Part shown: in pieces, positions 8,168 through 29,573 of the stretch | Layout of the letters: the number at the start of each line of letters is the position of its first letter | How positions within the stretch are numbered: the stretch's first letter is position 1 | Origin: Sphingomonas sp. | Lineage (GTDB): Bacteria > Pseudomonadota > Alphaproteobacteria > Sphingomonadales > Sphingomonadaceae | Reading direction: 5' to 3' | Length of the DNA stretch: 64,000 bases | Assembly: GCF_004799495.1 (NCBI RefSeq) | Contig: NZ_SSMY01000011.1 | Coordinates: 62,001 to 126,000 of the forward strand | Notes under the pieces: model-generated | The model's database searches: none | The model's input: only the letters and a program-made list of their open reading frames with translations | What the model was told of the DNA's origin: nothing | Made by a program: the position numbers and the translations under genes

Positions 8168-8751
8168 TGCTCGACCTGTTCGACGCCCCCGTCCTGCCCG
8201 GCATCGCCACCGTGGCGGACATCGTATCGCCCGACGAGGAAGCCGCCCTCGTCGCAGCGATCGATTCCGAACCCCTGACGCCATTTCAGTTCCAGCAATG
8301 GGAGGGGAAGCGGCTGACGCGCAGCTTCGGTATCAAGTATGACTTCCAGACGGGGCGGGTCAGCCGCGGCGACCCTCTTCCGGATTGGCTTGCCGGCCTG
8401 CGCAACCGGGCCGCGACGTTCGCCGGCGTCGAACCCTGCGATGTCGCTCAGTGCCTGTTGATCAGATACGATCCAGGCGCCGGCATCGGCTGGCACCGCG
8501 ATCGGCCTGCATACGGCCATGTCATCGGCGTCTCGCTCGGCGCGCCGGCCGCGATGCGGTTCAGGCGGCGCGTCGGCGGCGGGTTCGAACGAGCCTCCCT
8601 TCCCCTCGATCCGCGCGGCGCCTACCATCTGTGCGGCGAGGCGCGGCACGATTGGGAGCACAGCATAGCCGAGATGGAACGGACGAGGCATTCGATCACG
8701 TTCCGCACGCTGTCCGGCGAAGGGCGTCGGCGGGCCGCAAGCCTAGACTGA
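8167..8751 (+). CDS. alkB: AlkB-like 2-oxoglutarate/Fe(II) dioxygenase
   Basis: The 194-residue protein matches short AlkB-type dioxygenases that remove alkyl groups from DNA or RNA bases by oxidation. The iron ligands are visible: WHRD (His and Asp at about 110-112) and WEHS (His at about 165). The 2-oxoglutarate-binding arginines lie in RHSITFR (about 174-180). The substrate-contact loop LLIRYDPGAGIGWH is also typical. It starts at an ATG coupled to the preceding small gene. Its place between two SRAP genes and downstream of a LexA-type box suggests damage-induced direct repair. Confidence 0.9.
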   Translation: MLDLFDAPVLPGIATVADIVSPDEEAALVAAIDSEPLTPFQFQQWEGKRLTRSFGIKYDFQTGRVSRGDPLPDWLAGLRNRAATFAGVEPCDVAQCLLIRYDPGAGIGWHRDRPAYGHVIGVSLGAPAAMRFRRRVGGGFERASLPLDPRGAYHLCGEARHDWEHSIAEMERTRHSITFRTLSGEGRRRAASLD

Positions 8752-11123: not shown

Positions 11124-12597
11124 CGGCTTCGCCCTTGCCGACGGTCCGCTCGCGACCGCCGTCCCCGACCACGGCCGGCGCGTCGTAGCGGCGGTCGACG
11201 CGACCGCACGCGCGCAGGGCGTCACGCCCGGCATGACGGTCACGAAGGCCAAGACCTTCGCGCCGGACCTCCAGGTCGTCGATGCCGATCCGGATGCGGA
11301 CGCGGAAGGCCTGCGTCGCCTCGCACTGTGGGCCGGGGGGCGCTACGCCCCGCTGGTCGCCCCCGACCCGCCCGACGGCATCTGGCTCGACGTCACTGGC
11401 TGCGCGGCGTTGTTCTCCACGGAACGCGCGCTGCTCAAGGACCTTCACAGGCGCATCTCGGCGTTCGGACTCACCGTCCAGATCGCCGTCGCCGACACCG
11501 CCGGCTGCGCACACGCCGTAGCGCGGCACGTGCCTGCCGGCAGACCGGTGACCGTCGAGCCGGGCGATGCGCGCAAGGCGATCTCGCTCCTGCCGATCGC
11601 CGCGCTCAGGCTCGACGCCCCGACCGTCGATGGCCTGCGCAAGCTCGGCTTCGAACGGATCGAGCAACTGATCGGCACGCCGCGAGCCCCGCTTGCAAAG
11701 CGCTTCGGGCGCGGTCTCCACCGGCGCCTCGACCAGGCACTCGGCAACCTCCCCGAACCCATCGAGCCCGTCTTCCCTGAACACCTTCCCCGCGCTCGGC
11801 GTGGGTTCATTGAGCCGATCGCGACGCCGGAGGCATTCGGCCGCGTCATCGCCGACCTCGTCGCCGACGCCGTCGACCAGCTGGTGCGCATCGGTAAGGG
11901 CGCGAGGCGGCTCGACTGCCTGTTCCACCGCGTCGACGGGCACGTGCAGGCCGTGCGCGTCGGCACTGCGACGCCGTCGCGCGACGCCGCCCACTTGGCC
12001 AAGCTGCTGCGCGCGAGGATCGAAACCGTCGAGCCCGGACTCGGAATCGAGGCGATGACGCTGGTCGTGCCGTTGGCGGAGGCGATGGCTGCGCACCAGG
12101 GCGAAGGACTGGAATCCTTCGGAAGACGGGGCCCCAACGTCGCCGCACTCGTCGACGCGCTCGTCAACCGGTTCGGCGGCGGCAGCCTTCACCGCACGGC
12201 ACCGAGGCCGGGCGCGATGCCGGAGCGGTCGGTCGATCTGCCAGCCGCCCTCGCCCCGGCACGCGACGCCGCGTGGGCCGACGACCTGCCCCGTCCCGCG
12301 CGGCTGCTCGCGCGACCAGAACCGGTCGATGTGATCGCACTGCTGCCGGACGACGCGCCGCGCATGTTCGTCTGGCGCGGCCGCCGGTTCGCCGTCACCC
12401 GCGGCGATGGACCCGAGCGGCTGCACGGCGAGTGGTGGCGCGACGGCGGCGTCGAAGGTGAGCAGCCCTACACCGTGCGCGACTATTACCAGGTCGAGAC
12501 GGCGACGGGAGGGCGATACTGGCTGTTCCGCCTCGGTGACGGGGTCAACCCGTCCACCGGGCCGATGCGCTGGTTCATCCATGGCGCGTTCGCATGA
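11044..12597 (+). CDS. imuB: ImuB, inactive Y-family polymerase of the mutasome
   Basis: A 517-residue protein related to Y-family DNA polymerases but without their catalytic carboxylates. The N-terminus reads [15 protein letters not shown] where active enzymes have the first catalytic Asp, and [13 protein letters not shown] replaces the usual SxDE segment. ImuB links DnaE2 to the beta clamp and ImuA. The start is the ATG at MRRVVSLF inside the end of imuA; longer readings upstream are out-of-frame shadow of imuA. Its stop overlaps the dnaE2 start. Confidence 0.92.
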
Positions 12598-15500: not shown

Positions 15501-15911
15501 AAGGGCGTGATGTTCATCACGCTGGAGGACGAGACGGACGTCGCAAACCTAGTCGTGTGGACCAAGATCTTCGAGGCCAACCGGCGGACAGTGCTCGGCG
15601 CATCGATGATGGGCGTGCGCGGACAGGTCCAGCGCGAAGGCGACGTGATCCATGTCATCGCGCGCCGCCTCGACGACATGTCGTCGCTGCTCGCGAGCGT
15701 TGGCGGGCGAGCCGACGTGGCCGACGTCTACCGCGTAAGCCGGGCCGATGTCGTGAAGCATGGCATGGGGCCCGACCCGCGAGACCCGGCTGAACGGCCT
15801 CTCGGCAAGGGCGCGCGTGACATATACATTGCCGACCTGCGTCTTGGCTCGGGAATTATCCCGGGTGAACCGGTGGAAGGCATCAAAATCAAGGCGAGAG
15901 ACTTCCGATAA
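12594..15911 (+). CDS. dnaE2: Error-prone DNA polymerase DnaE2 (ImuC)
   Basis: This 1,105-residue C-family polymerase performs translesion synthesis in the ImuAB-DnaE2 mutasome. The N-terminal PHP domain starts with [18 protein letters not shown]. The catalytic aspartates are in [16 protein letters not shown] (about residue 380), and [16 protein letters not shown] precedes them. Helix-hairpin-helix and OB-fold regions fill the C-terminus ([22 protein letters not shown]). Its ATG overlaps the imuB stop. The length and motifs indicate an intact enzyme. Confidence 0.95.
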
Positions 15912-15990: not shown

Positions 15991-16320
15991 ATGAAAAACA
16001 GTGAAGCGCTCGCCGCGCTTGGCGCGCTGGCACATCCCACTCGTCTCGACGCGTTCCGCGAACTCGTTCGCCACGAGCCGGCCGGTCTCTCCACGGGTGC
16101 CCTCGTCGATGCGAGCGGCCTGACGCAGAGCACGTTCTCCACGCACCTGGCCGTGCTGGCGAAGGCAGGACTGGTGACGGCGGAAAAGCAGGGCCGCCAG
16201 CAAATCCAGCGCGCCAACATCGACACGCTCCGTGGGCTGATGACCTTCCTCGCCAAGGACTGCTGCCAGGGCCGCGCCGAACTGTGCGAGCCCCTCCTTG
16301 CCGAACTCGCCTGCTGCTGA
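15991..16320 (+). CDS. arsR: ArsR-type arsenic-responsive repressor
   Basis: A 109-residue winged-helix repressor (ALAHPTRLDAFRELV; the recognition helix is in GLTQSTFSTHLAVLAKAGLV). The C-terminus contains CCQG, a Cys in ELCEPL and a final ACC, a plausible As(III) site of the type described for C-terminal-Cys ArsR proteins. The promoter is close: TATATT at 15977-15982 lies inside the inverted repeat CATCG-N8-CGATG (15972-15989), a likely self-operator, so the message may be nearly leaderless. It is first in a five-gene arsenic operon. Confidence 0.9.
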   Translation: MKNSEALAALGALAHPTRLDAFRELVRHEPAGLSTGALVDASGLTQSTFSTHLAVLAKAGLVTAEKQGRQQIQRANIDTLRGLMTFLAKDCCQGRAELCEPLLAELACC

Positions 16321-16331
16321 AGGACCACGCC

Positions 16332-16763
16332 GTGACCGACGTCATCATCTACCACAACCCCGAGTGCGGCACGTCCCGCAACACGCTGGCGATGATTCGC
16401 AACGCGGGAATCGAGCCGCACGTGATCGAGTACCTGAAGACGCCGCCGGAGCGCGCGCTGCTCGTGCAGCTGATCGAACGCGCGGGCGTGACGCCGCGTC
16501 AGCTGCTGCGCGAGAAGGGCACACCCTACGCCGAGCTCGGTCTGGACGATCACGCCATCAGCGACGACGCGCTCGTCGACGCGATGATGGACCACCCGAT
16601 CCTGATCAACCGCCCGCTGGTCGTCACGCCGGTCGGCGTGAAGCTGTGCCGCCCGTCGGAGGAAGTGCTCGACATCCTGCCTGAGCCGCAGCTGGGCGCC
16701 TTCACCAAGGAGGATGGCGAGCAGGTCGTCGGCACCGACGGCCGCCGCGTGTCGCCAGAATGA
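16332..16763 (+). CDS. arsC: Arsenate reductase ArsC (glutaredoxin-dependent)
   Basis: A 143-residue reductase that turns arsenate into arsenite using glutathione and glutaredoxin. The catalytic Cys is in HNPECGTSRNTL (about residue 13). Arginines that bind arsenate fall in LLREKGTPY and LINRPLVVTPVGVKLCRP. It starts at a GTG 11 bases after arsR and its stop overlaps the next start (ATGA). Arsenite made here would leave through the adjacent aquaporin. Confidence 0.93.
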   Translation: MTDVIIYHNPECGTSRNTLAMIRNAGIEPHVIEYLKTPPERALLVQLIERAGVTPRQLLREKGTPYAELGLDDHAISDDALVDAMMDHPILINRPLVVTPVGVKLCRPSEEVLDILPEPQLGAFTKEDGEQVVGTDGRRVSPE

Positions 16764-17428
16764 GGCGGCGCGCGCTCCTCGCCGAGGCGTTGGGCAGCCT
16801 GCTTCTGTTCACGGCCGTCATCGGCTCGGGGATCATGGCCGAGCGGCTCGCTGGCGGTAACGTCGCGATCGCGCTGCTGGGCAACACGCTGGCGACCGGC
16901 GCAATCCTGTTCGTCCTGATCACGATGTTCGGCCCGGTATCCGGCGCGCACCTCAACCCCGCCGTCACGCTCGTCATGCGGCTGCGGGGCCATCTCAGCA
17001 CGCGCCTCGCGATCGCCTATGCCGCGGCGCAGGTGGCCGGCGGCATCGTCGGTGTCTGGCTCGCCCACCTGATGTTCGACCAGCCGATCGTCGAGCTGTC
17101 GTCCAAGATCCGCGGCGGCCCGGGTCAGCTCACCGGCGAGGCGGTCGCTACGTTCGGGCTGATCCTCACGATCCTGGGAACGACCCGCATGCGACCCGCC
17201 GCAGTGCCGGCCAGCGTCGCGCTATACATCACGGCCGCCTACTGGTTCACGTCGTCGACCAGCTTCGCCAACCCAGCCATCACGCTCGCGAGATCGATGA
17301 GCGACAGCTTCGCGGGGATCGCGCCGGCCAGCGTTCTTGCCTTCGTCGCCGCCCAGATCGTGGGGGCGATCGCCGCCCACCTTGTGGCGCACGCGTTGTT
17401 CGATGAACCTGCAGCGGCGACCGCATGA
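16760..17428 (+). CDS. aqpS: MIP-family aquaporin, arsenite channel AqpS type
   Basis: A 222-residue aquaglyceroporin with two half-helix motifs: GAHLNPAVT (about residue 59) and SFANPAITLARSMSDSFAGI (about 170). About six membrane helices are visible. In Sinorhizobium AqpS replaces the ArsB pump and lets arsenite flow out after ArsC makes it. Here it holds the same place, between arsC and arsN2/arsH, and no ArsB or Acr3 gene is seen. Stop and start overlaps on both sides show translational coupling. Confidence 0.9.
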   Translation: MRRRALLAEALGSLLLFTAVIGSGIMAERLAGGNVAIALLGNTLATGAILFVLITMFGPVSGAHLNPAVTLVMRLRGHLSTRLAIAYAAAQVAGGIVGVWLAHLMFDQPIVELSSKIRGGPGQLTGEAVATFGLILTILGTTRMRPAAVPASVALYITAAYWFTSSTSFANPAITLARSMSDSFAGIAPASVLAFVAAQIVGAIAAHLVAHALFDEPAAATA

Positions 17429-17865
17429 GCAGGGTCACGTTTTCCCCCCTGCCGAAGGGTCATCACGACGTCCTCCGCCTCGCGCTCGACGCGGCACGCC
17501 TTCCGACCGGCGACCTCGACCTGCCCTGCCGCGCGTTCTTCGAACTATCCGACGATCAGGGTCCGATCGGGTTCATCGGCATCGAGGGCGATGGCGCCGA
17601 TCGGCTGCTTCGCTCGCTCGTCGTCCTGCCGAGCCGGAAGCGGCAGGGCCATGGCGGATTGCTGGTTGCCCATGCTGAAGCCCACGCTCGGCGCAATGGC
17701 GTGAAGCGGCTGCACTTGCTCACCACCAGCGTCGCCGACTTCTTCCGCGCCCGTGGATACCGGCCGGGCGAGCGCAGCGACGCTCCGCCGGCGATCGCCG
17801 GCACCGCCCAGTTCTCGTCGCTCTGCCCCGGCAGCGCCACCTACCTCGTCAAGGAACTCGCATGA
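17425..17865 (+). CDS. arsN2: GNAT acetyltransferase ArsN2-like
   Basis: A 146-residue GNAT enzyme. The acetyl-CoA motif is [18 protein letters not shown] (RxxGxG/A type). The C-terminal [24 protein letters not shown] is typical of arsenic-operon acetyltransferases called ArsN2. Related ArsN1 proteins acetylate arsinothricin or phosphinothricin; the substrate of ArsN2 is unclear. Both ends overlap neighbouring genes by four bases, so it belongs to the operon. Confidence 0.85.
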
Positions 17866-18614
17866 GACGCCTCCGCGATCTCACCGATCCCAGCCGCATG
17901 CCGGCGCTCGACGCCGCCTTGGCCAAGCGCCGGCCGGCGCTTGGCATCGGCGACGACCAGCCGCCGCCGCGCATCCTGCTGCTCTACGGCTCGCTCAGGG
18001 AACGGTCATTCTCACGCTTGGCAACTGAGGAGGCGGCGCGGCTGCTCCAGTTCTTCGGCGCCGACACACGGATCTTCGACCCGTCCGACCTGCCGCTGCC
18101 AGACCAGGTCCCAAACGACGACCATCCTGCCGTCCACGAACTGCGCGAGCACGCTTTCTGGTCCGAGGGCATGGTGTGGTGCAGCCCCGAGCGCCACGGA
18201 CAGATCACCGGTATTATGAAAGCGCAGATCGACCACCTGCCACTCGAGATGAAGGGCCGCCGCCCGACCCAGGGCCGCACGCTCGCAGTAATGCAGGTGT
18301 CGGGTGGGTCGCAGTCGTTCAACGCCGTGAACACGCTACGGCTGCTCGGTCGATGGATGCGGATGTTTACGATCCCGAACCAGTCTTCGGTCGCGATGGC
18401 CTACAAGGAATTCGATGAGGCTGGGCGCATGAAGTCGTCCAGCTACTACGACCGCATCGTCGACGTGATGGAGGAGCTGGTCCGCATCACGGTGCTGATG
18501 CGTCCGCACTCCGTGCAGTTGGTCGACAGATATTCCGAGCGGAAGGCCGCCGGCTTGAAGGCGGTCGCCGAGGACCATTCGGCGGTCGCAGTTGGAAAGT
18601 CGGATAGACCCTAG
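17862..18614 (+). CDS. arsH: ArsH NADPH-dependent FMN oxidoreductase
   Basis: A 250-residue flavodoxin-like oxidoreductase. The FMN loop [38 protein letters not shown] and [26 protein letters not shown] are all ArsH signatures. ArsH oxidises trivalent methylated and aromatic arsenicals to less toxic forms. It ends the arsenic operon, three bases before the end of the converging DUF4209-type gene. Confidence 0.95.
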
Positions 18615-18617
18615 CCG

Positions 18618-20480
18618 TCAGAGTTCCATTTCGATCGCGGGAGCGACGACGTTACGCCACCGGCTGAACAACGGCCGGCACGCCAAATTGAAGATGAACC
18701 AGCACCCCACAACCGTCTCGGGCGCGTGGAACGCGTTCCAATGCATCTTGCCGTGCGCCAGCTCGTTCCTGAGCGACGGCCCCGGCCGGAAATTGAAAAG
18801 CAGGTCGATCTCGTGGACGATGTCGACGCCCCACATCGCCTCCAGGTCGCCACGGTTGACGTCGAGCAGCGCGCCAAGCGCACGATCACCCTGCAACAGG
18901 TCAGCCTCGACCTTGGTCGGGTCGGCATTTCCGAGCACCAGCATGTGTCGCAGCGAATTCTCCAGCTGCGGGAAAAGGATGTGGGCGGCCGAGACGTAGT
19001 CGCCCTGGAACATGCGGGCGAACCCCAGCGAGAAGATGTTGCCATAGCCCGGGGGCACGAAGGGTGTGGTGTGCGTGATCGGCACGAGATGGCGCTCCTC
19101 GACACTGAAGCGGTCGAGAAGCGTGCGGCGCGCGGGCTCGATCAGCCCGTTGACCTGCTGGAACCTGGTGACCGACATATGACGGACGCACTTCGCCTTG
19201 ACCCAATCCTCGTCTGGCTCGCTGTCCAAACCTAGAGCGTCCACCCGGGCCACCGTCTTGCCGTCACCGTCGAGATATTCCGAGCCGCCGATCGCATCGA
19301 GGATCGACCCCTTCGCACCTGCGATCGCGGCCGCGCGAAGCTCGTCCCGCTTCGGTGCATCGACGAGGATCAGCATCTGCGCGAACGCGTCGGGCAGGCT
19401 CAAGCCTTCGAACAACTCAACCGCCGCCGCCCGCTCCTCGGTGAGATCGATCGGGATGAGCGTCGACCCCATCTCGTCGCGCGCCGACAGCTGCAGCTGC
19501 CGCATCTCGTCGAGAAGCTGGCGGACACGATCCTTCGTCCCCTTCACCTCGCGTAGCTCGGCGACCGCCAGCTTGGTCCAATGCGCCTTCGCCAGCGAGC
19601 CATGGCACTGGTCGCGCATCTTCAGCGTCTGTTCCGCAGCCTCGCGACGGCAACGATCCTCGTCGTCGGGCCGCTGGGACCAGCCGTGGCACCGGGCAGC
19701 CAGAAGCCAAGCGCGCTTGACGGCCTCGGGATAGGCGTTGGCGGGCGCGGCTGACGCGAGAATCTCCGCCTCACGCGACGCATCGTCCGGCGTCAACAAT
19801 CCCACCCCCATGCCGATATCGGCCAGCTCGACGAGCTGGACGTATGCGGCATCGGCGCGAGCCTGATCCCAAGCGCGCTCGAACGCTCCGCGCACCGTCG
19901 CGGCGATGTCTCCCCTCTTATTGAGCAGCCGCATCAGGTCGATGGCGCGCGCGATCGGCTTGACGACGTCGTGCATGCCGAGGGCGACGCCGGGGATGCC
20001 CGGGACAACGGTCCCGGCGAGGACCCTCATCGCAACCTCGCAATACGCCTCCATCGCTGCCCGACCGGCACGGTGATGGCGACGGGCGTTGAGGAACGCG
20101 ACGTCGCCCATCCGGGCGCGCAAATGCGCGTGGGCGATCGAGGGCGCCATGTCGGCTACGACGTCGTTCTGCTCGCCGCGGATGTCTGAGGGAATCATCG
20201 ACCTGCGGTCGCCCATGACGAGCTTCGCGCCGAACACCTCGGCCGGGTCGTCCAGCCGCATGTGGAACGACATCAGGCCCGCCAGCAGATCGAACACCCG
20301 CTCGCGCGATCCCTCCCCAGCGGCTGCCGCAACGGCCGCCGCGTCACGGAGGTCATTCTCCACCGAATAGCCGTCGGCCGAAGTGCGCGCGGCAAGGAAC
20401 GCGTCGAGGCCGCTGGCGGCGAAATCCTCCCGTGTGGCGAGGACATAGAGCGGACGGTCGTCTTCCGGCTGGTCGGACAT
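18618..20480 (-). CDS. DUF4209-like large protein with C-terminal RNxxxHG motif
   Basis: A 620-residue soluble, mostly helical protein. The C-terminus carries RNELAHG (about residues 571-577), the RNxxxHG signature of DUF4209. The Arg-x4-His spacing is also that of HEPN-type RNase motifs. N-terminal and middle parts show no known motif. The start is taken at MSDQPEDDRPLY, preceded by GGGGAGAACGG; an in-frame upstream start would add 29 basic residues. It is divergent from a TnsB-like gene, and a LexA-type box lies between them. Whether it has RNase or defence activity is untested. Confidence 0.6.
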   Translation of the reverse strand: MSDQPEDDRPLYVLATREDFAASGLDAFLAARTSADGYSVENDLRDAAAVAAAAGEGSRERVFDLLAGLMSFHMRLDDPAEVFGAKLVMGDRRSMIPSDIRGEQNDVVADMAPSIAHAHLRARMGDVAFLNARRHHRAGRAAMEAYCEVAMRVLAGTVVPGIPGVALGMHDVVKPIARAIDLMRLLNKRGDIAATVRGAFERAWDQARADAAYVQLVELADIGMGVGLLTPDDASREAEILASAAPANAYPEAVKRAWLLAARCHGWSQRPDDEDRCRREAAEQTLKMRDQCHGSLAKAHWTKLAVAELREVKGTKDRVRQLLDEMRQLQLSARDEMGSTLIPIDLTEERAAAVELFEGLSLPDAFAQMLILVDAPKRDELRAAAIAGAKGSILDAIGGSEYLDGDGKTVARVDALGLDSEPDEDWVKAKCVRHMSVTRFQQVNGLIEPARRTLLDRFSVEERHLVPITHTTPFVPPGYGNIFSLGFARMFQGDYVSAAHILFPQLENSLRHMLVLGNADPTKVEADLLQGDRALGALLDVNRGDLEAMWGVDIVHEIDLLFNFRPGPSLRNELAHGKMHWNAFHAPETVVGCWFIFNLACRPLFSRWRNVVAPAIEMEL

Positions 20481-20539
20481 CCGTCCGTTCTCCCCCTGTT
20501 CCGGATGCTTGTCCAGCGCCGCCATCGGTCGGGGACGGA

Positions 20540-20554
20540 GAACGACCGGTGAAC
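20540..20554. promoter_or_regulatory. LexA-type SOS box between DUF4209-like and TnsB-like genes
   Basis: GAACGACCGGTGAAC fits GAAC-N7-GAAC exactly. It is 59 bases upstream of the gene at 20614 and 59 bases upstream of the divergent gene at 20480. The exact match could arise by chance about once per 65 kb per orientation, so its support is weaker than that of the imuA box; the position between two gene starts is what favours it. Confidence 0.5.
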
Positions 20555-20613
20555 CACGTCTCGCCATCGGCTTGGCGGGCTCTCGGAATCTTCATCAAAA
20601 AGAGGAAAAAGAT

Positions 20614-21498
20614 ATGCAGGACATCGATCTGTCCGGCGTCGATCCGACGCGCTGGGCCGAAACCCGCCGCCGCGTCGGGATAATCCGCGAGTGGTGCGCC
20701 AAGCCGCGCCACACCAAGGCCGAGGGCATCGCCGCCGCCACCCGCTTGGGGCTCAGCGTCGGACAGTTCAACCGCCTGGTCGCGAGTTGGAAGGCACACG
20801 GCGATGCCCTTCGGATCAGTGGCAGCAACCGGCGGCGGGGAGCCAGCACCGGCACAACCACTTTGCCGGCTGCCACGCGCGCCGCCATCGACGCGGCCAT
20901 CGCCACCGTGGGTGCGGACGCGGCCTTCCAAGCCGTCCGCGACGAGGCCGCGCGTCGCTGCCGCGACGCGGGGACACCCGAGGCGTCGGAAGGCATGGTG
21001 CACTACCTGCTCATGCGCGCGCGTCGCGATGGCGCCCACCGAGCGCGTGCCGATTCAGCGCGGCTCCTGATCGGTCATGTGCAGGCCCTGCTGCCCGTCT
21101 CCGACGGCGAAGGCGGCGCGGGCATCCCTACCCTGCTACTCGCCGTCGAGGAAGCTAGCCGCCGCGTGATCGCACATCGCCTGACGATCCATGGCGCGCC
21201 ATCGGCGAACGCCGTTGATTCACTGGTCAACGAGGTCCGCGAGGGGCAACCGACCGACCGGCGGGGCGAGATCGTCGTCGCGAAGGATCTGGCCACCTCG
21301 CCGCAGGAGGGCATCAAGCATGGCGGCGGGCCCCGTCTGCTGGCATCCATCCTCGGCAGCCACCTCGACACCCTCCCGCTAAGGCACCAGCGGGCGCGGC
21401 CGGGCGAAACGCGTCGTGCACCGGGGCAGCCGGTCAGCCTAGAAGACGCCCACACCGCCGTTTCCAGCGCGGTCGACGCCCACAACCTGCGGCTGTAG
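20614..21498 (+). CDS. TnsB-like protein with degenerate integrase core (short)
   Basis: A 294-residue protein with an N-terminal HTH (RLGLSVGQFNRLVASWKAHG) and then a region that resembles a DDE integrase core: LLIGHVQALLP and LLLAVEEASRRVIAHRL match the first strands of TnsB/TniA cores and of the neighbour at 21529-22737. The first catalytic Asp is replaced by His (about 155), and no Asp-Glu pair follows. The start is the ATG after AAAGAGGAAAA. It is probably an inactive relative of a transposase, perhaps a DNA-binding regulator or accessory protein. A LexA-type box precedes it. Confidence 0.5.
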   Translation: MQDIDLSGVDPTRWAETRRRVGIIREWCAKPRHTKAEGIAAATRLGLSVGQFNRLVASWKAHGDALRISGSNRRRGASTGTTTLPAATRAAIDAAIATVGADAAFQAVRDEAARRCRDAGTPEASEGMVHYLLMRARRDGAHRARADSARLLIGHVQALLPVSDGEGGAGIPTLLLAVEEASRRVIAHRLTIHGAPSANAVDSLVNEVREGQPTDRRGEIVVAKDLATSPQEGIKHGGGPRLLASILGSHLDTLPLRHQRARPGETRRAPGQPVSLEDAHTAVSSAVDAHNLRL

Positions 21499-21528
21499 CC
21501 CATTCGCCCGCGGCGCGGACGCCCCGGC

Positions 21529-22737
21529 TCACTCCGCGAGCATCCGCAAAGCGTCGAGAAGCCCATCCGGCGGCGTCGGGGCCCCGCCGCGACGTTCGAT
21601 GACCTTCGTGGCATTCCAGGTCGCAACTTCGCGGGCGATGCGAAGTTCGGCCTCGCCCTCGGTGAACACCTCGTCACCTTGGGTCAGCGGCGGCGGCCCC
21701 TTCGCAACCCACGTCGGTCGCAGCCATATGCCGCCGATCCGCTCGCCCACATACTTGCGCAGCTGCGATCCATACCGACGCTCGCGCGTAATCAAATCGA
21801 CATCGGCGGGGCGGAGCGCCGCCTTCATGTCTGCGACCCGATGGGACCAACTTTCGCCATCGGCGCCAACCACGATGTCCATTCGGCGCATGGCCGCGGC
21901 CCACGGCAGCGGATGAGGCGTATCCTTCACCGCCTCCCGTGCGCCTATGGCGGCGCGACGGTAGCCACCGACGCTATCGGCCAGCGACCCCATCGCCCAG
22001 CCGAGGATGCGAAGCGTTCCGCGATCGATAAGGCAGAACAGCGCGAACGGTTTGCCGCCTGCGTCACGCATCGCCACCGGGCAACAGTCGAGCACGACCG
22101 ATTCGCCGAGCATCGCCATGTCCGCGACGCGAGCCTGTTCGCGGGCGATGATGGCGCGCACGGTCTTCGGCGACGGCATGGTCGGGCCGTCCTTCCTGCC
22201 GATGGCTGGCACGCGCGCGCGCACGGCGTGTTCGAGATCGCGCCGCAACGCCTCGACGGAACGAGCCCCTTCAGCCGCTGCAGCGATCACCTTCACGACC
22301 TCCGCCTGAAGCGCGGCGTTGACGGCCGGGTCGATCCGGCGCGTGCGATCCGGCGAGCCCGCGGCATAAGAGCCAACGGCCAGAAGTCCCGGCCTTCTGC
22401 GCCAGGCCGACGCCATCTGGTAGAAGCGGTTCGGCTCGACGCCAGCGGCGGCGGCCGCCGTCACCGCCGTCAGCTCGCCGCGGTCGCCCACCCATCGCCG
22501 CAGAAGCTCGATGCGTGTTGCCGCGCGACGCCGCAACGCGGGCGACATCGACAACCAGGCCTCCCTCTCCTCTGCCGTCGGCCGCTGTCCGACCAGCGAT
22601 TCGAGGTCGACCACGATGTCCGATTCGCCAGCCACCGATTCGGCATGCGCGACATCCTCGCCCCGCGTGATCCCCACGGCGGTAATAGCGGCGGCGCGCG
22701 GGCGCTTGGTGGACTTGGGGACGCGGGTCGAGGCCAT
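21529..22737 (-). CDS. TnsB-like protein with degenerate integrase core (long)
   Basis: A 402-residue protein with the same layout as its neighbour. The HTH region (AGVEPNRFYQMASAWRRRPGLL) is followed by a linker (PSPKTVRAIIAREQARV), then VVLDCCPVAMRD...FCLIDRGTLRILGW, a good match to the first strands of rve cores. Candidate aspartates remain (about D217 and D293 in VGADGESWS), but where the catalytic Glu is expected (SQLRKYV, about 325) there is no Glu. The gene converges on 20614-21498 and is divergent from tnsA. An inactive TnsB paralogue with a targeting or regulatory job is the working idea. Confidence 0.55.
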   Translation of the reverse strand: MASTRVPKSTKRPRAAAITAVGITRGEDVAHAESVAGESDIVVDLESLVGQRPTAEEREAWLSMSPALRRRAATRIELLRRWVGDRGELTAVTAAAAAGVEPNRFYQMASAWRRRPGLLAVGSYAAGSPDRTRRIDPAVNAALQAEVVKVIAAAAEGARSVEALRRDLEHAVRARVPAIGRKDGPTMPSPKTVRAIIAREQARVADMAMLGESVVLDCCPVAMRDAGGKPFALFCLIDRGTLRILGWAMGSLADSVGGYRRAAIGAREAVKDTPHPLPWAAAMRRMDIVVGADGESWSHRVADMKAALRPADVDLITRERRYGSQLRKYVGERIGGIWLRPTWVAKGPPPLTQGDEVFTEGEAELRIAREVATWNATKVIERRGGAPTPPDGLLDALRMLAE

Positions 22738-22776
22738 TTCCGCGGCATACGATGGTTAAGAGGCTGCGCCAACCCA

Positions 22777-22849
22777 TTTGCAAATGAAGACGCATAAAAA
22801 GTTGTTGCCAAAATCGAGGTCCGTCCTATGTTGCATCTTCATTTGCAAA
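22777..22849. repeat. 14-bp inverted repeat upstream of tnsA, candidate TnsB or operator sites
   Basis: TTTGCAAATGAAGA (22777-22790) is repeated exactly in inverse as TCTTCATTTGCAAA (22836-22849), 18 bases before tnsA. The enclosed DNA is AT-rich against its surroundings. The core ATTTGCAAA also occurs once after tniQ (TTTGCAAAT, 29079-29087). In Tn7 the TnsB sites of the right end overlap the tnsABC promoter, so this could be a transposon end, an operator, or both. Confidence 0.55.
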
Positions 22850-22866
22850 CAATGGGATGACAACTC

Positions 22867-23628
22867 ATGCGGTTGCAGAAGCCCCCGAAATCCGTCCAGG
22901 CGACGCAGGTCCGCAGCTTCGGCAGGATCGACGCGCTCCGGATCGTGCGGCCGATCGGCCCCGGCCCGATCCGCCAGATCATCACCGGCAACAAGGTCGT
23001 GGTGACGACCAACTATCCTTCGAAGAAGAACCGCTGCGCGCACCCCGCCGAAGCGCAGACCGAGGGTGCGGGCACGAAGCACGACGAGGTGGTCACGCAC
23101 ATCGTCCGGTCGAAGCCGCAGCCGTTCCGCATCGAGGCCGTCATCGACGGCGTCCTGTTCCGCAGCGTGCCCGACCGCATCCGGCTCATGGCCGACGGCT
23201 CGCGCTCGATCGTCGAGTTCAAGCGCGAGTGGAAGGATTTCGAGCGCGAGGAGGCGCAGGCCCAGTCGACGCTCGCCATCGCGGTCGCGGACGAACTCGG
23301 CCTCATATACGAGCGCAAGACCCTCGCCTGCCTCGGTGACGAGACCCGGCGCGCCAACATCAACCGCGTCCAGCTCTACCGCTTCGTCCCCGTCACCGTC
23401 CGCCAGGAGATGACGGCGACGCGTATGCTGGCCGAACGCGGCCCCCTCGCGCTCGGCGAACTCGCCGACGCCATGGCCGCCGACCACCGCAACGGCTTCG
23501 CGCACGTGTGTGCACTCATGGTGCGCCGCATCGCGGCCATCGACCTCGACGGTCGCGAAATCAGCCGCGACAGCCGCGTCGACCCCGTCCCGCCCCTCCC
23601 GACCGTGATGCCGAGCATCAACGTGTAG
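22867..23628 (+). CDS. tnsA: TnsA-like endonuclease of a Tn7-like element
   Basis: A 253-residue protein whose central part has a PD-(D/E)xK nuclease core: VPDRIRL (Asp103) and IVEFKRE (Glu117, Lys119). TnsA cuts the 5' strands at Tn7 ends so that TnsA plus TnsB excise the element by double-strand breaks. The C-terminal half has a winged-helix-like region (RMLAERGPLALGELADAMAA). It is first in the tnsA-tnsB-tnsC-tniQ operon. A cut-and-paste mode is inferred from its presence. Confidence 0.85.
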   Translation: MRLQKPPKSVQATQVRSFGRIDALRIVRPIGPGPIRQIITGNKVVVTTNYPSKKNRCAHPAEAQTEGAGTKHDEVVTHIVRSKPQPFRIEAVIDGVLFRSVPDRIRLMADGSRSIVEFKREWKDFEREEAQAQSTLAIAVADELGLIYERKTLACLGDETRRANINRVQLYRFVPVTVRQEMTATRMLAERGPLALGELADAMAADHRNGFAHVCALMVRRIAAIDLDGREISRDSRVDPVPPLPTVMPSINV

Positions 23629-23723
23629 CCTCCCGCCAACCCGACAATCCGCCCTTCCAGAGGCGGCTGCCGGGATGCGCGCCCCGGCCGCCGCGACGAA
23701 CCCGCGCGCCCGGAGAAGATGAA

Positions 23724-25940
23724 GTGAAGATCAAGAACGTGATCGGCCGCACCATCAAGGTCGATGGCCAGAAGCTATTCGTCGAAAAGGCGCTCGGCGA
23801 CGGGTTGCTGCACATCATCGAATTGCCCGGCGGAGCGCCGTTCCGCCCGATCAACGAGGAAACCGGCGACCGCATGATGCCGGACGAGGCATTCATCAAC
23901 GAGGTGAACCGCCGCGGCCTGCTCGAGATCCTCGCGGACGAGAACGGACCGATCGTCGGGGCGCTGCCGCCGGAACCCCCGATGACGCCCGAGGAAATCA
24001 TGGCCGTCGATCCGATGGCCGAGGTTCGGGTAATCGTCGTGGACGGGCTGCGGGAGCGCGGGGCTCACGCGAACGACCCCGACCTCTCGCGCCAACTGAA
24101 GGCTGTGTGGGCCGAGAAGGGACTGGCAAAGAAGGCCGGCCCGACGCCGCCGGTCTCGACCGCCCGCGCGTGGCTGAAGAAGGTCGAGAACGATGTGGCC
24201 ACCCTTTCGGCGCTGATGTCGCGGTCGGGTCGCGTGCCCCGCGCGCGCCGGCTCGATCCCGAGATGGTCGAGATCGTCGAGCTGCTCGCGCGCTGGTATT
24301 ACGCCCTGCGCGGACGCCGATTGCAGGACGTCGTGACCGAGGCGGACAAGAAGACGAAGGAGTTGAACGCCCGACGCAAGGCGCTGGGCCTGCAGCCGCT
24401 CCGCCCCCCGTCGCGCGAGACACTCCGCCGCGAGATCCAGCGCATCCTGTGCCGCGAGACCTACGCCGAGAAGTATGGCGAGAAGGCCGCAAAGTCGCGG
24501 TGGGACGGTTCCGGCAAGGGTCTCTCGGCGAGCATCGCGCTGGAACTTGGTCTGATGGACGACACCGTCATCGACAACGTCGTCGTGTTCGACGGACGGT
24601 CGGCGGTGCCGGCGGGGCGCCCTTACATCTGCGTGCTGCTAGACGTCAGCACGCGGGCCGCGCCCGGATGGGTGACGAGCTTCGTTCCGCCCACCGTGCA
24701 GACCGCGGCGGCGTGCGTCAGGCGCGCGGCGTTCGGGATGCCCGTTCGGCCCGACCGCGCAGAACGCTACCCGGTCCTGCTCGAGATGAACGGCAAATTC
24801 GACGAGATCGGCGTAGATAACGGCAAGAACTACGCGTCGACGTCGTTCCAGCACGCGCTCGCCGACATCGGCACGACGCTTCGGCTGATGCCGGTCGGGT
24901 CGCCGCGGCACAAGGCCATGGTCGAGAGGCTGTTCCACACGCTCAAGACCTTCCTGCTGGAGAAGCTGCCGGGCTACACCCTCAATCCCGCGATCCTGAG
25001 GGAGTTCGGCTACGATCCCGAAAAGGAAGCCGCGATCACAATCAGCGACCTCCAGAGCCTCATCGCGGACTTCTTCTACGCCTACCACATCGTCGTCCAC
25101 AGCGGCATCGGGACGCAGCCCGCGAACGCCTGGCAGAAGTCGATCGAGAAGCACGGCCGCAACGTCGTCGCGAACCCGGCCAAGCTGGCGGTGCTGGTGC
25201 ACGCCACCATGACGAGGCGCATCACGCGTGCGGGCGTCCGCGCGTTCGGCGGAATGCGCTTCACGCATCCGCAGCACGCGCCCGCCCTGCTCGACGCCAT
25301 CGTGGCGCGCGAGAAGGTCCGCAACCGCACCAGGGCCGGGACCACGGCCACCGCCCACATCAAGTATGATCCCGAGGACCTCGGCGCTATCTGGGTGCTG
25401 AACCCCGACACGAACGAATACCTGCGGCTCGACAATGTCGATCAGGAATACGCCAAGGGGCTCCCGCTCTGGCGCCACCGGCAGATCGTCAAGTGGGTCG
25501 AGAAGGAGAACCTCGCCTTCAACACCGTCGAGGAGCGGCTCGAGGCCCGGCGCTTGCTGAATGAGCGCATCCTCGAACTCGCGCCGGAGATGAAGAACCG
25601 CGAACGCCGCGCCATGGCGCGCATGCTGGGCAAGCCGCTTGTCGATGCGGAGGTCGACTTCGCGGAAGCACCGCCGACGCACGACGGTCTCGCGCCGGTC
25701 ATCGAGCACGACCTGGCTGCCGACGAGCGCATCGACGCCGAGGTCAGCTTGAGTCGGCCCGGCACCCTGACCGGCGACGGCGCCGACGACGCTGACACCG
25801 ACGGTGAGGCGGCAGCCGGCGCTCGCGGCGGCGACGCCGACGACCGTGACGACGGAGAGTCGGACGTCGAGACCGAGATCCAGGATCCGCTGTGGAGTTC
25901 GCCGCCCGACGAGGACGACCAGTGGGAGGACCTCGCATGA
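23724..25940 (+). CDS. tnsB: TnsB-like DDE transposase
   Basis: A 738-residue transposase of the TnsB/TniA/Mu group. N-terminal DNA-binding domains are followed by an rve core: an Asp in VIDNVVVFDGR (about 284 or 290), Asp365 in GVDNGKNY and Glu401 in HKAMVERLF, the last two 36 residues apart as in D35E enzymes. A Mu C-terminal beta-barrel region and an acidic tail (about 670-738) follow; the tail probably contacts TnsC. The start is the GTG after CCCGGAGAAGATGAA; the longer upstream reading is a shadow of tnsA. Its stop overlaps tnsC. Confidence 0.9.
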   Translation: MKIKNVIGRTIKVDGQKLFVEKALGDGLLHIIELPGGAPFRPINEETGDRMMPDEAFINEVNRRGLLEILADENGPIVGALPPEPPMTPEEIMAVDPMAEVRVIVVDGLRERGAHANDPDLSRQLKAVWAEKGLAKKAGPTPPVSTARAWLKKVENDVATLSALMSRSGRVPRARRLDPEMVEIVELLARWYYALRGRRLQDVVTEADKKTKELNARRKALGLQPLRPPSRETLRREIQRILCRETYAEKYGEKAAKSRWDGSGKGLSASIALELGLMDDTVIDNVVVFDGRSAVPAGRPYICVLLDVSTRAAPGWVTSFVPPTVQTAAACVRRAAFGMPVRPDRAERYPVLLEMNGKFDEIGVDNGKNYASTSFQHALADIGTTLRLMPVGSPRHKAMVERLFHTLKTFLLEKLPGYTLNPAILREFGYDPEKEAAITISDLQSLIADFFYAYHIVVHSGIGTQPANAWQKSIEKHGRNVVANPAKLAVLVHATMTRRITRAGVRAFGGMRFTHPQHAPALLDAIVAREKVRNRTRAGTTATAHIKYDPEDLGAIWVLNPDTNEYLRLDNVDQEYAKGLPLWRHRQIVKWVEKENLAFNTVEERLEARRLLNERILELAPEMKNRERRAMARMLGKPLVDAEVDFAEAPPTHDGLAPVIEHDLAADERIDAEVSLSRPGTLTGDGADDADTDGEAAAGARGGDADDRDDGESDVETEIQDPLWSSPPDEDDQWEDLA

Positions 25941-26914
25941 GCTTCGACCCCAAGCGCGCCCGCGCGCCCTTCGCGCCGCAAGAACTCGTCCCCGCCACGG
26001 GCGATCCCGGCAAGACGCCCAGCGCCACGGCCGTCGGCGTCAGCCGCGCGCGCTACCGCGCGATCTACATCAGGAGCCCGGCCCATCGCCGGGTCCACCT
26101 GGCGTTCGATCGGCTGCGCGCGCTCGGGCTGGCGACGCCCGGGATGCCGCAGCGCGCCGTCCGCAACAGCGCACATTCCGGATCCGGCAAGACCGCCAAC
26201 GCGGAGGCATACGAGAAGCACGCCAACGCGAACGCGGCCGAAGGAACGATCCCGGTCCTGCACGTCGAACTCGACAAGGCATCCACCGTCGCGCGCCTCT
26301 GGGCATCGGTGAACGAGAAGGCCGGCGACGACTACAGCGACAAGGGATCGGAGGACATGCTGCGGCGGCGCGCGTTCAAGCTGCTCAAGGAAAAGAGCGT
26401 GGAACTGCTGATCATCGACGAGGCGCAGCACCTGTCCTACCGTTCGAGCTCGCGCAACGACGTGACCGATTCCCTCAAGAAGGCGCTGGACGACGGCGTC
26501 GTCCCAATCGCGCTGGTGGGCAACCAGGACCTCGCGCCGCTGCTGTCGCAGAACATCCAGCTCTCCAACCGGATGGATCCGCCGTGCGATCTCGAACCGC
26601 TGGACGTGCGAGTGGAGCGTGACCGCAGCGAGTTCAAGGGATTCGTCGGCCGCCTCGACGACGCCATGCTCGCCCGGGGGATCGTCACGGAGAAGGCGAA
26701 CCTGGTCGAGGTGCGGACGCTCGGATGCCTCTACGCCGTCAGCTCGGGCATTATCGGACGCGTCTTCAACCTCGTCGAGCAGGCGCTCGTCCACGCCCTC
26801 GAGCGGGGAGCGACGCAGATCGAGCTGTTCGATCTGGCTGCGGCTACCGACCGCTGGGCGATTGCGCAGAAGGTCGTCGACTACAATCCGTTCCGGACCG
26901 GCGCCAAGCTGTGA
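25937..26914 (+). CDS. tnsC: TnsC-like AAA+ ATPase
   Basis: A 325-residue AAA+ ATPase of the TnsC/TniB type. Walker A is SGSGKT (about residues 81-86), Walker B is LLIIDEAQHL (about 157-166), and ALVGNQDL with NRMDPPCDLEPL fits sensor regions. TnsC forms filaments on target DNA and passes the target signal from TniQ to TnsAB. The ATG overlaps the tnsB stop, and its own stop overlaps the GTG of tniQ. Confidence 0.9.
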   Translation: MSFDPKRARAPFAPQELVPATGDPGKTPSATAVGVSRARYRAIYIRSPAHRRVHLAFDRLRALGLATPGMPQRAVRNSAHSGSGKTANAEAYEKHANANAAEGTIPVLHVELDKASTVARLWASVNEKAGDDYSDKGSEDMLRRRAFKLLKEKSVELLIIDEAQHLSYRSSSRNDVTDSLKKALDDGVVPIALVGNQDLAPLLSQNIQLSNRMDPPCDLEPLDVRVERDRSEFKGFVGRLDDAMLARGIVTEKANLVEVRTLGCLYAVSSGIIGRVFNLVEQALVHALERGATQIELFDLAAATDRWAIAQKVVDYNPFRTGAKL

Positions 26915-28899
26915 CGGCGGATTTCGAAGAGGTGGCTCGCGGCTTCGGCCGCGAGCCGCACCTCCGCCGCGTGGTGCTCCCCCTAAAGGCGGTCCACGAG
27001 CGCGAATCGCTGATGAGTATCGTCTATCGCACCGCCGAACGGACGGAATTGACGCCGGGGCACATCATTCTGTCTGCTGGCTACCCCCACCGCCAGACAT
27101 ACAACATGGCAGTGACGGAACTGCAACGCGCGCCCGATCTCGCCTACGTGCTCGGCGTCGCTGAAGACGAGGTCCGCGCCCGAATCTACGCGGAGACCTT
27201 CCACTCGGGCCGCGGATGCACATTCGTGAATTTCGCGGGCGCGTCGGTCCCGGCGACGCTCCTGAACGTCCGCGAGAGGAAGATCGCGCCGGCCGCGCTC
27301 GAGGATCGCCCGTTCCACCACCTGTTGTCGGAGCACCGGCTGCTGCCCTTCGATGCTGACACGGGCACCTTGTTAATCTCGCGCTGTCCGGAATGCCGCA
27401 AGCGGCTAGCGTGGACCGTCGTCCGGTCGTTTTACCGCTGCCCCTGTGGCGCCGATCTGCGCACCGCGCCATCCATCGCCGTGCCCGAAGAGTTCGTCGA
27501 TGGCGCGACGGCAATGGCGCACCTTCTCGACCCACGAACGGCCACGCACGCTCCCGCCGTCGAGGCGCTACCGGCGTCGATCCGGACTATGAACCGCGGC
27601 AGCCTGTTCGAGATCGGCTGGCAGACCGCCGTTGCGATCGGTTTCGCGGAGCGGCCGGAGGCCAATGCCGCCAACTGGCCGGACGACTGCAAGATCCGAA
27701 CGCTCGACCTCGCCGCCCGACTGCTCGCGAACTGGCCCGCGAGCGCCGAGGCGGCCTTCGCCGAGATCGCCTCGACGGAGCACCGGCGCCGGGCCGTCAC
27801 CAGTCTCGCAGCCCTTGCCCGGTCGACCCGGATTCCGGACGATGTGCGCGCGGGTATCCGGTCCATCCTGCCGCCGCGCGCGACGGCGACCCGGGCCGCT
27901 TCCTCGGGCCGGCCCCACGGCGTCAACCTCACCGCCTCTGAGCGATCATTGCGGCGCGAGGCGTATGCGGCCCGTGGCGGCGAGGGCACGATCGTCGGCG
28001 ATCGCGTTGCCGATTCCGTTTCGATGAATCAGGCGTGCCACATCCTTGGAACGTCCATACAGGACACATCGCGCATGCTCCGCACGATGGAACCGGTTGA
28101 CGCGCTCGGCGCGCACAAGTCACGCGTTCGCTACGCGCGTAACGACGTCGAACGCTTGGCCGACCTCATCGACAACCGGATCCCGATCGACACGCTTTCC
28201 TACCGCTCCGGCATATCGATCCACGGCATCGAGCAGATGGTCTGCCTTGGCTACCTTGACCGTCTTGACGAACCGGCGATCCTGGCGGGTTACAAGACGC
28301 CTCAGGTCGATCGCCGATCGGTCGTAGCCCTGGTCGATTGGATCGTCCGGCGGTCGCTCGATCACGAGCCGGATGGCTGGATCTCGCTCCCGCAAGCGAT
28401 GAAGGCCATAGGCGGCAGGGAGAAACCATGGGGGCCGGCATTCACCCTGCTGTTGACCGAGCAGTCGCTGCCATTCTTCTGGCGCGGCGGCGAGCGGGAT
28501 GGCTACCTGCCCACCGGCGCGATCATCGTCCCGCCAAGGGCGACCGAGGCGTTCCGCACGGTCGCCTTCTCGAGGCTGGATCATCCGCTTTTCGATTTCG
28601 ACGAATACCTTACCGCCAGGGACGCGACGACGGTTCTGAATATCTCCGATTCTAAGTTCACCAAGATTCGCGAAAAACATTTCCGAGGCGCGGTCATTAA
28701 AAACGGCCGGATCGCGGCCGCGGCGGTCATTGCCGCCGCGCAGACCTGGGTGGCACCGGGCGAGCTGGCGGCTAGGTCCGACCGAACCCCGCACGAATGC
28801 TTCACCGAACTGCAGCGCGCCAAGCTGCCCCGAACCTTGCTCGGCTTTCCGCGCCTCGAGGCCGAGCGCCTCATGAAATTGGCGCCCAGCGATTTCTGA
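26911..28899 (+). CDS. tniQ: TniQ/TnsD-like target-selection protein
   Basis: A 662-residue TniQ-family protein. The N-terminal TniQ domain includes LTPGHIILSAGYPHRQTYN. A zinc-ribbon follows (CPECRKRL and RCPCGADL, about 158-180). Several HTH-like regions fill the C-terminal half (NQACHILGTSIQDTSRML, DSKFTKIREKHF). In Tn7, TnsD reads attTn7 beside glmS. No glmS is nearby, and this protein is longer than Tn7 TnsD (about 508 residues), so it may use another attachment site. It starts with GTG coupled to tnsC. Confidence 0.85.
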   Translation: MTADFEEVARGFGREPHLRRVVLPLKAVHERESLMSIVYRTAERTELTPGHIILSAGYPHRQTYNMAVTELQRAPDLAYVLGVAEDEVRARIYAETFHSGRGCTFVNFAGASVPATLLNVRERKIAPAALEDRPFHHLLSEHRLLPFDADTGTLLISRCPECRKRLAWTVVRSFYRCPCGADLRTAPSIAVPEEFVDGATAMAHLLDPRTATHAPAVEALPASIRTMNRGSLFEIGWQTAVAIGFAERPEANAANWPDDCKIRTLDLAARLLANWPASAEAAFAEIASTEHRRRAVTSLAALARSTRIPDDVRAGIRSILPPRATATRAASSGRPHGVNLTASERSLRREAYAARGGEGTIVGDRVADSVSMNQACHILGTSIQDTSRMLRTMEPVDALGAHKSRVRYARNDVERLADLIDNRIPIDTLSYRSGISIHGIEQMVCLGYLDRLDEPAILAGYKTPQVDRRSVVALVDWIVRRSLDHEPDGWISLPQAMKAIGGREKPWGPAFTLLLTEQSLPFFWRGGERDGYLPTGAIIVPPRATEAFRTVAFSRLDHPLFDFDEYLTARDATTVLNISDSKFTKIREKHFRGAVIKNGRIAAAAVIAAAQTWVAPGELAARSDRTPHECFTELQRAKLPRTLLGFPRLEAERLMKLAPSDF

Positions 28900-28935
28900 C
28901 CGGTCGGGCCGCTTAGGTCACTGTCATTGCCGACT

Positions 28936-28989
28936 GCATACCCTAAGCGGGTATGCCATCGGATTGGAAGCTCGTTAGCGGGTATCCCA
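28936..28989. repeat. Repeats after tniQ, possible transposon-end sites
   Basis: GCATACCC-N5-GGGTATGC (28936-28956) is a perfect 8-bp inverted repeat. Its right half belongs to a direct repeat, TAAGCGGGTATGCCA (28944-28958) and TTAGCGGGTATCCCA (28975-28989), spaced 31 bases, three helical turns. Spaced repeats of this kind at the end of a tns operon could be TnsB-binding sites or a regulatory site. The other end of the element does not show the same sequence in this window. Confidence 0.4.
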
Positions 28990-29092
28990 CGATGTGCAGA
29001 ATTACGCTTTTTGGACGATTCCAAGGGGTTACGGCGAACATCCTAAACGAGCACGATCATCAGCGATCCATTCAGGTTTTTGCAAATTGCCG

Positions 29093-29186
29093 GCGCGGGA
29101 CTGAATCCCGCGCCGTCGGACCTCGCTTTGCGAGGCCGGCCGATCGGCGTCTCACGATTAGCACGCGCTAATCGTGTGCGCCTCTG
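29093..29186. repeat. Three-hairpin dispersed repeat, copy A
   Basis: Three hairpins follow in order: CGCGGGA/ATCCCGCG, CCTCGC-TTT-GCGAGG, and CACGATTAG/CTAATCGTG. They are joined by GTCGGAC and GGCCGGCC-like linkers. A second copy at 58827-58938 keeps the order and linkers but has different paired bases, so stems are conserved by compensation. The element ends exactly at the stop codon of the minus-strand response-regulator gene. It marks the apparent junction between accessory island and chromosome. Confidence 0.7.
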
Positions 29187-29573
29187 CTAGAGGATAACAT
29201 CCCCCTCGCCACCCGCGAGGATGCGGCCCATCGCCTCGAACAGCGCATCCATCGCGACCGGCTTGAACAGCACTTCGTCGGCGCCCGCGGCGATGCACCG
29301 CTCGCGCAGGTCGAGCGCGGTGTCGGCGGTGACGACGATGATCGGCATCTTCGCCTTGGCGTCGGTGCGCGCGCGGATCGCCTTGATCGCGGTGATCCCG
29401 TCCATGCCGGGCATGCGCAGGTCGATCAGCGCCATGTCGTAATCGTGGGCATCGATCATCTTTAGACCGATCTCGCCATTTTCGGCCTCGGCCATCGTGG
29501 CGCCGGCTACGTCGAGCATGTCGGCGACGACTCGCCGGTTCATCGGATCGTCCTCGATGAAGATGACGTTCAT
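29187..29573 (-). CDS. Single-domain response regulator
   Basis: A 128-residue receiver domain with no output domain. Acidic pair EDD (about 7-9), phospho-acceptor Asp in LIDLRMPGMDG (about 51), Thr in VVTADT and Lys in LFKPV are all present, so it should be phosphorylated. It lies 61 bases downstream of the hybrid histidine kinase gene on the same strand and is the likely partner. Output by protein-protein contact, CheY-like, is inferred. Confidence 0.9.
   Translation of the reverse strand: MNVIFIEDDPMNRRVVADMLDVAGATMAEAENGEIGLKMIDAHDYDMALIDLRMPGMDGITAIKAIRARTDAKAKMPIIVVTADTALDLRERCIAAGADEVLFKPVAMDALFEAMGRILAGGEGDVIL

Follow-up and report, generated by a model that had tools for sequence, protein, structure and literature searches.

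The window analysed here is a 64-kb stretch of contig C3 in a genome of 3.03 Mb, and its positions 20614-28899 carry the core of a Tn7-like transposon together with two further genes, which we call X and Y. X (20614..21498, plus strand) and Y (21529..22737, minus strand) converge ahead of tnsA, tnsB, tnsC and tniQ, which follow in this order on the plus strand. The two genes code for proteins of 294 and 402 amino acids that are predicted to be TnsB-like; X has lost the catalytic set and Y retains the first Asp only. For X an alternative in-frame start upstream, at 20509, is possible. An original prediction for this DNA had described a tnsA-tnsB-tnsC-tniQ operon beside two convergent TnsB-like genes, and both the coordinates and the gene order were confirmed.

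The tnsA gene (22867..23628, plus strand) was assigned by its position, a weak match to a PD-(D/E)XK model (E 0.096) and a family profile, which the TnsA protein matched with 253.8 bits, the window protein itself being among the seeds. The tnsB gene (23724..25940, plus strand) starts with the ATG at 23724 within a frame open from 23508, and codes for an intact Asp-Asp-Glu (DDE) triad: D279, D365 and E401 are invariant in 16 of 16 aligned TnsB proteins, with the second Asp and the Glu 36 residues apart, the spacing that the original prediction had reported. In L008, L010 and L095, three of the related loci described below, TnsB is represented by two overlapping open frames, one for the catalytic part and one for the C-terminal part (for example 11585-13063 and 13060-13983 in L010), which is either a split TnsB or a frameshift. 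The product of tnsC (25892..26914, plus strand) is an AAA+ protein of the TniB family (PF05621, E 2.9e-16) with the P-loop AHSGSGKT (window 26171-26194), in which Ala stands in place of the usual first Gly. The tniQ gene (26911..28899, plus strand) has a GTG start and a product of 662 amino acids, the size of TnsD. This product matched PF06527 with E 8.1e-5 and 23.7 bits, below the Pfam cut-off of 27, and the TniQ model of PADLOC with E 5.2e-5.

Neither X nor Y matched a Pfam family above the cut-off, and no TniQ domain match was obtained in the Pfam search. The single PADLOC match of X is a weak one to JetD (residues 39-128, E 5.3e-4, 17.4 bits). Profile-profile comparison shows X to be homologous to Y (E 1.1e-14), while the same comparison to TnsB gave weak values (X, E 0.0058; Y, E 0.018). 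Among PDB chains, sequence profiles had no hit with Y, and the hits with X were limited to two designed repeat proteins and a transporter protein. The assignment of a fold rests on structure models. AlphaFold models were built from nine-sequence alignments, with a mean predicted local distance difference test (pLDDT) of 78.1 and a predicted template modelling score (pTM) of 0.56 for Y, and values of 76.4 and 0.60 for X. For both models the top matches were TnsB and MuA (Y: Foldseek E 9.1e-8, VIA Z 10.7 over 160 residues; X: Foldseek E 1.3e-5, VIA Z 9.2 over 128 residues). Retroviral integrases, which also have the RNase H fold, come next with Z 8.4 for Y and 8.3 for X, so that the margin of TnsB/MuA is modest and smallest for X. 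X and Y are thus predicted to consist of N-terminal helical DNA-binding domains followed by an RNase H domain, the fold for which the original prediction had suggested structure prediction as a check. The DNA-binding-domain layout of the N-terminal helices is supported solely by whole-chain matches of high root-mean-square deviation.

In Y, Asp217 corresponds to the first catalytic Asp and does not vary among the 26 sequences, that of the window being one of them. At the place of the second Asp, 17 sequences have G, 7 have P, 1 has Q and 1 has D; a D stands two residues further in 16 of the 26, and none of the Glu slots checked is conserved. In the first-Asp region of X, residue 154 is D in 10 of 29 sequences, residue 155 is H in the window, and no catalytic set is conserved. 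Neither protein therefore has a DDE triad. The original prediction had noted a His at the first Asp of X and a missing Glu in Y, which is a fair reading, with the addition that Y lacks the second Asp as well; its term "inactivated transposase cores" was right, the triad being lost in both proteins.

The occurrence of the pair was followed with a Y profile made from six Y proteins. In an order-wide search 37 of 396 genomes matched, and 25 loci from 24 of these were fetched besides the window. The other 12 matched genomes are G444 and 11 genomes with weak hits on or beside a hit of the TnsB profile, which we take to be the DNA-binding part of ordinary transposases. Genes of the X type and the Y type stand together with tns genes in the window and in all 25 fetched loci, which bears out the co-occurrence that the original prediction had proposed as a check; in L097 a contig edge precedes tnsC and tniQ, and in L112 the tns genes are divergent. 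X and Y converge in 23 of the 26 loci and have the same direction in L108, L110 and L111. Extra copies of X were seen in L108 (two X) and L111 (three X). Further elements were taken from a named collection (L113, L114, L115) and from S. albertensis (L196). When the same 396 genomes were searched from the TnsB side, 29 loci reached at least 380 bits. Both X and Y are present in 24 of them; L181 shows a lone protein of the X/Y type, and L179 and L180 are truncated by the ends of their contigs.

Relatives detected by sequence in named organisms belong to Sphingomonas, Qipengyuania, Tsuneonella, Blastomonas, Sphingobium and Novosphingobium. In the order-wide search, hits of the Y profile above 60 bits did not extend beyond the window's own family. 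A more thinly sampled search of the class (385 genomes, E 1e-10) recovered Y from 2 genomes, both of the window's genus. Plasmid records contained no relative of X or Y at E 1e-3 and no close copy of the L114 core, and viral contigs contained no Y relative. In L117 (9833-11987) X and Y form an orphan pair, the stretch fetched there containing no tns gene; the genome of L117 also holds another complete X/Y element. Upstream of tnsA in L178 (4809-8157), a locus without X or Y, a serine recombinase gene and two RepB/ParB-type genes lie on the tnsA strand. A third conserved cassette gene upstream of X was considered and rejected, the genes at this place being common to few loci only.

X and Y are under purifying selection, as judged from the ratio of nonsynonymous to synonymous substitution rates (dN/dS), which was 0.08-0.47 in four element pairs: 0.30 for Y and 0.47 for X in L114/L118, 0.08 and 0.12 in L118/L116 (with dS near saturation), 0.29 and 0.33 in L094/L113, and 0.12 for X in L108/L111. 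The core genes gave values of 0.03 to 0.22 in these comparisons. Conserved beside tns genes and under purifying selection, the pair is not debris.

The X/Y pair is inherited independently of the core. Mantel tests were performed on protein identity matrices of 28 elements (27 where TniQ or TnsC enters) with 500 shuffles. Mutual correlation was found among the core proteins TniQ, TnsC, TnsB and TnsA (Spearman 0.61-0.71 at p 0.002, the lowest value that 500 shuffles allow; Pearson 0.90-0.93) and between X and Y (Spearman 0.68, p 0.002; Pearson 0.84). Between the core and X or Y the Spearman coefficients were -0.04 to 0.09 (p 0.18-0.76; Pearson 0.12-0.23), with 0.05 for TnsB and Y and 0.09 for TnsB and X. 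L114 was dropped from these tests as a near copy of L010. A repeat, in which L108, L110 and L111 were dropped as well because their X copies or X orientation differ, gave 0.63-0.74 within the core, 0.71 for X and Y, and -0.08 to 0.09 (p 0.18-0.81) between core and pair. Identities around 20% are near saturation, and the correlations, drawn from identity matrices, describe two linkage blocks and no dated history.

Individual comparisons give the same picture. Of the 351 pairs of 27 elements (L114 and L097 left out), 9 have cores with a mean identity of at least 45%, and 1 of these 9 also has a Y identity of at least 40%. Conversely, Y identity reaches at least 40% in 7 pairs; of these 1 has a core identity of at least 45%, and in 5 the core identity is at most 22%. 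L010 and L093 have cores of 18-23% identity with Y at 81% and X at 74%, and L094 and L113 cores of 19-25% with Y at 76% and X at 69%. L096 and L099 show the opposite (core 59-77%, Y 25%, X 25%), as do L012 and L106 (core 57-72%, Y 23%, X 19%). L108 and L111 have cores of 89-98% identity and a Y identity of 30%. For elements with more than one X copy the comparison used the copy with the best score, and the X identity of 38% for L108-L111 paired unlike copies; their matched X copies are 93 and 97% identical. In these two elements Y alone was replaced, and X stayed with the core. L117 and L196 are in none of the Mantel, 351-pair and target-permutation counts.

The exchange extends into the DNA between Y and tnsA. 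L118 and L116, whose cores are unalike, are 75% alike from L118 position 9799, near the tnsA start, through Y and X to 12978, and in L094 and L113 parts of the intergenic DNA are alike together with X and Y. Between L108 and L111, homology at 91% covers the core and the greater part of a long intergenic region and ends 272 bp before Y; in L096 and L099, which have related cores, homology ends at the tnsA start. The DNA just upstream of Y is therefore common where Y is common (two comparisons) and not where Y differs (two comparisons). This suggests that X and Y are traded between unrelated transposons together with a DNA switch between the pair and the transposition machinery.

This same region contains paired, operator-like sites. 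In the window, site 1 (TTTGCAAATGAAGACGCA, 22777..22794, plus strand) and site 2 (22832..22849, minus strand) are inverted copies of each other. These two are the only matches to the site, TTTGCAAATGAAGAYGCA, in the 64 kb with up to three mismatches, where 0.03 matches are expected. A sigma-70-like promoter directed towards tnsA (22805..22832, plus strand) lies between the sites by consensus match only, with one found and 0.1 expected. Site pairs were tested in the 310 bp that surround the Y start: among 15-mers repeated directly or inverted at a distance of 30-95 bp, the best pair was compared to dinucleotide shuffles; for L009 the Y start was set at 8457, inside a longer open frame. The window pair had p 0.003. 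Altogether 10 of 29 loci, some of which had been inspected before the test was fixed, had p<=0.05, with 1.5 expected (Fisher p 1.4e-5), and a control region upstream of X gave 2 of 26 loci (p 0.74). L196, which was fetched after the test, has an inverted pair with one mismatch (p 0.001). L009 and L115, with Y proteins of 46% identity, have a common type of site, L118 and L116 have exactly the same site, and L095 contains a looser match to the L118 site with 3 and 5 mismatches. In L009, L115, L116, L118 and L100, which were scanned whole, the own site was found only between Y and tnsA.

The predicted fold that X and Y share with TnsB would also fit proteins that act inside the transpososome or on the element ends, as competitors of TnsB or as mediators of target immunity, by which an element avoids insertion near itself. 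Truncated or dead transposases are inhibitors in other systems. Recognition of ends should covary with TnsB, yet X and Y do not covary with it, and the site upstream of Y in L118 is at neither mapped end of this element with up to three mismatches; it is also absent from L134, which carries the far end of L118. We consider such a role improbable.

The main rival is a second target-selection module comparable to TnsE or TnsF, in which X and Y would bind target DNA, for example on mobile elements, and recruit TnsC, while TniQ serves the chromosomal site. Inheritance apart from the core is what a selector might show, and target selectors are known to be modular, TnsF being an inactivated recombinase (PMC10293859). 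The mapped ends allow a comparison of targets. L010 has TATCAGATTGCAC at both ends and a duplicated GATTG, the same holds for the Blastomonas element L118/L134, and plausible candidates for such ends were found in L094, L098 and L105. The tniQ-side end of L118 is at the 3' end of a PRA-CH/PRA-PH gene and its far end six bases after a tRNA-Cys gene; in Qipengyuania L114, which is 96% identical to L118, the tniQ-side end is about 22 bases from a tRNA-Thr gene. That two such similar elements occupy different chromosomal sites may indicate more than one pathway of targeting. Their presence in two genera is probably the result of a recent transfer.

The same tRNA-Thr(CGT) gene is the tniQ-side neighbour of five elements, of which L096 is in the opposite orientation. 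L100 has 1.8 kb between this gene and tniQ, and L095, L100 and L109 lack precisely mapped ends. In a permutation test (L010 and L097 left out) the four elements of the same orientation had a TniQ identity of 36.1% against a background of 23.7% (p 0.004), and their identities in TnsC (p 0.003), TnsB (p 0.002) and TnsA (p 0.004) were likewise above random sets. Their Y (p 0.29) and X (p 0.18) were not above random sets, although L095 and L114, compared by themselves, also exceeded the background in Y and X (40 and 38%). The attachment site thus follows the core, most simply TniQ. Beyond the tRNA-Thr group the tniQ-side neighbours of all elements were too diverse for classing of targets. tRNA targets are already known for Tn7-like elements, as PMC8649781 and PMC11406308 state. 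Four elements at the same target share their cores and not Y or X, TniQ here is itself of TnsD size, and the exchanged block includes promoter-side DNA that a selector does not need. A selector function is unlikely in our view.

X and Y could also form an exclusion or interference cassette against other mobile elements that is merely carried by these transposons. Independent inheritance, the extra X copies in L108 and L111, and the orphan pair of L117 in a genome with another complete element would fit this. The place directly upstream of tnsA is nearly fixed, whereas cargo varies, and the tnsA-side DNA is exchanged along with the pair. We regard this explanation as very improbable.

A regulatory cassette is the simplest account of the pair, since X and Y are transposase-like, dead, conserved, and exchanged with the DNA beside tnsA. 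Specifically, we propose with a probability of about one half that X and Y are dead TnsB-like DNA-binding proteins kept as a swappable two-gene control cassette that brings its own sites. Either protein by itself, or both in combination, would bind the site pair in the divergent Y-tnsA region, and the bound proteins would hold down transcription of tnsABC-tniQ and of Y itself. Cassette and sites would be traded between elements with unrelated transposase cores, like the immunity regions of temperate phages. We infer binding to these sites, repression as its effect, and selection for immunity or control. The original prediction had left three roles for the inactivated cores: the regulator is favoured by the exchange of the pair with the Y-proximal promoter region and the enrichment of repeated sites there, a selector of chromosomal targets is less likely, as elements at a common target resemble each other in the core and not in X/Y, and so is a competitor matched to the ends of its own element, as X and Y do not covary with TnsB.

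Several of our data weigh against a regulatory cassette. The pair is not obligatory, as L177 and L178, from the TnsB-side search, are cores without detectable X or Y, and in L108/L111 X and Y did not move together. This test found no significant site pair in 19 of the 29 loci; of the ten with such a pair, L118 and L116 are not independent, and the conservation of their site is partly inheritance, since it lies in a common block of 75% identity. In L095 the pair that reached significance differs from the L118-like one, and the orphan L117 lacks, upstream of Y, the site that its nearest relatives have. As for a promoter consensus between the sites, a scan of 8 other loci found none; it is present in the window only, and we do not use it as general evidence.

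In a more specific form of this reading, which we put forward tentatively and regard as doubtful, X, Y and the promoter sites are a transposon immunity region that represses its own element and incoming elements with the same sites. Where sites are shared, immunity against an incoming element would result, and swapping of the region would make related cores heteroimmune, as in lambdoid phages, which would explain related cores with unlike pairs.

The genes on the cargo side of the window element include a candidate defence gene similar to PDC-S39 (18618..20567, minus strand; DUF7380 and DUF4209; PADLOC E 8.5e-85), which adjoins X and is probably cargo. Window 12594-15911 is a DNA polymerase III alpha-type gene by Pfam, which we take to be dnaE2-like. 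Copies with 83-87% identity to it occur in three further genomes of its genus, twice in G225, and the own genome has another DNA polymerase III alpha-type copy at 51% identity; the window gene is probably mobile cargo. It adjoins genes for an ArsR-type regulator and an FMN-reductase, an apparent arsenic gene group (15991-18614). On the other side, the element should end, beyond tniQ, within the interval 28900..29187, although its precise end was not found there; two direct repeats AGCGGGTATSCCAY at 28946 and 28977 may be transposase sites. Response-regulator/kinase genes start at 29187, and relatives of the kinase are present in 61 of 61 genomes of the genus. Searches for repeats, motifs, target-site duplications and terminal repeats over 78.6 kb on the cargo side yielded nothing credible as the ends of the window element. 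The top end match in the window (18/24, past the start of the conserved response-regulator gene) was not accepted, as it was no better than the best match in other elements that have no credible end. Comparison for an empty site was negative: within the stretches compared, the genes following the kinase/response-regulator pair in relatives are not on the cargo side.

Compared to TnsB and MuA of Tn7, CRISPR-associated transposons (CAST) and phage Mu, X and Y have the same predicted fold and domain order. They differ in that the catalytic set is lost, that the proteins end soon after the RNase H region, and that they form a pair beside an intact TnsB. Transposase-related DNA-binding proteins act as regulators elsewhere, as seen in the shared operator binding of the Mu repressor and MuA and in the Tn5 inhibitor. 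Unlike these, X and Y keep the predicted DNA-binding part together with a dead RNase H domain, occur as a pair, and are inherited apart from the core. TnsF of Tn6022 is similar to X and Y as an inactivated recombination enzyme kept by a Tn7-like element; it has a tyrosine recombinase fold with zinc fingers, is operonic with tniQ and is a target selector (PMC10293859). X and Y instead lie upstream of tnsA and do not follow the one testable target. CvkR of type V-K CAST has the function that we propose for X and Y, being an element-borne repressor with inverted-repeat sites in tns promoters; unlike X and Y it is MerR-type, not transposase-like, and a single gene (PMC9938897).

Work on Tn7-like elements concerns their target selectors and their use as tools of genome editing. 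In the accessible text of the literature searched there was no earlier description of a dead TnsB pair in a Tn7-like element. A survey of selectors took genes operonic with tniQ/tnsD (PMC10293859) and would miss X and Y, because the pair is divergent. X and Y thus represent a conserved, independently inherited module with a predicted transposase fold, outside the descriptions in that literature. If they are selectors, they would constitute a new selector class. If they are a repressor-operator cassette, transposons would trade immunity regions as phages do, and the elements would offer a natural set of matched control switches for Tn7-like systems.

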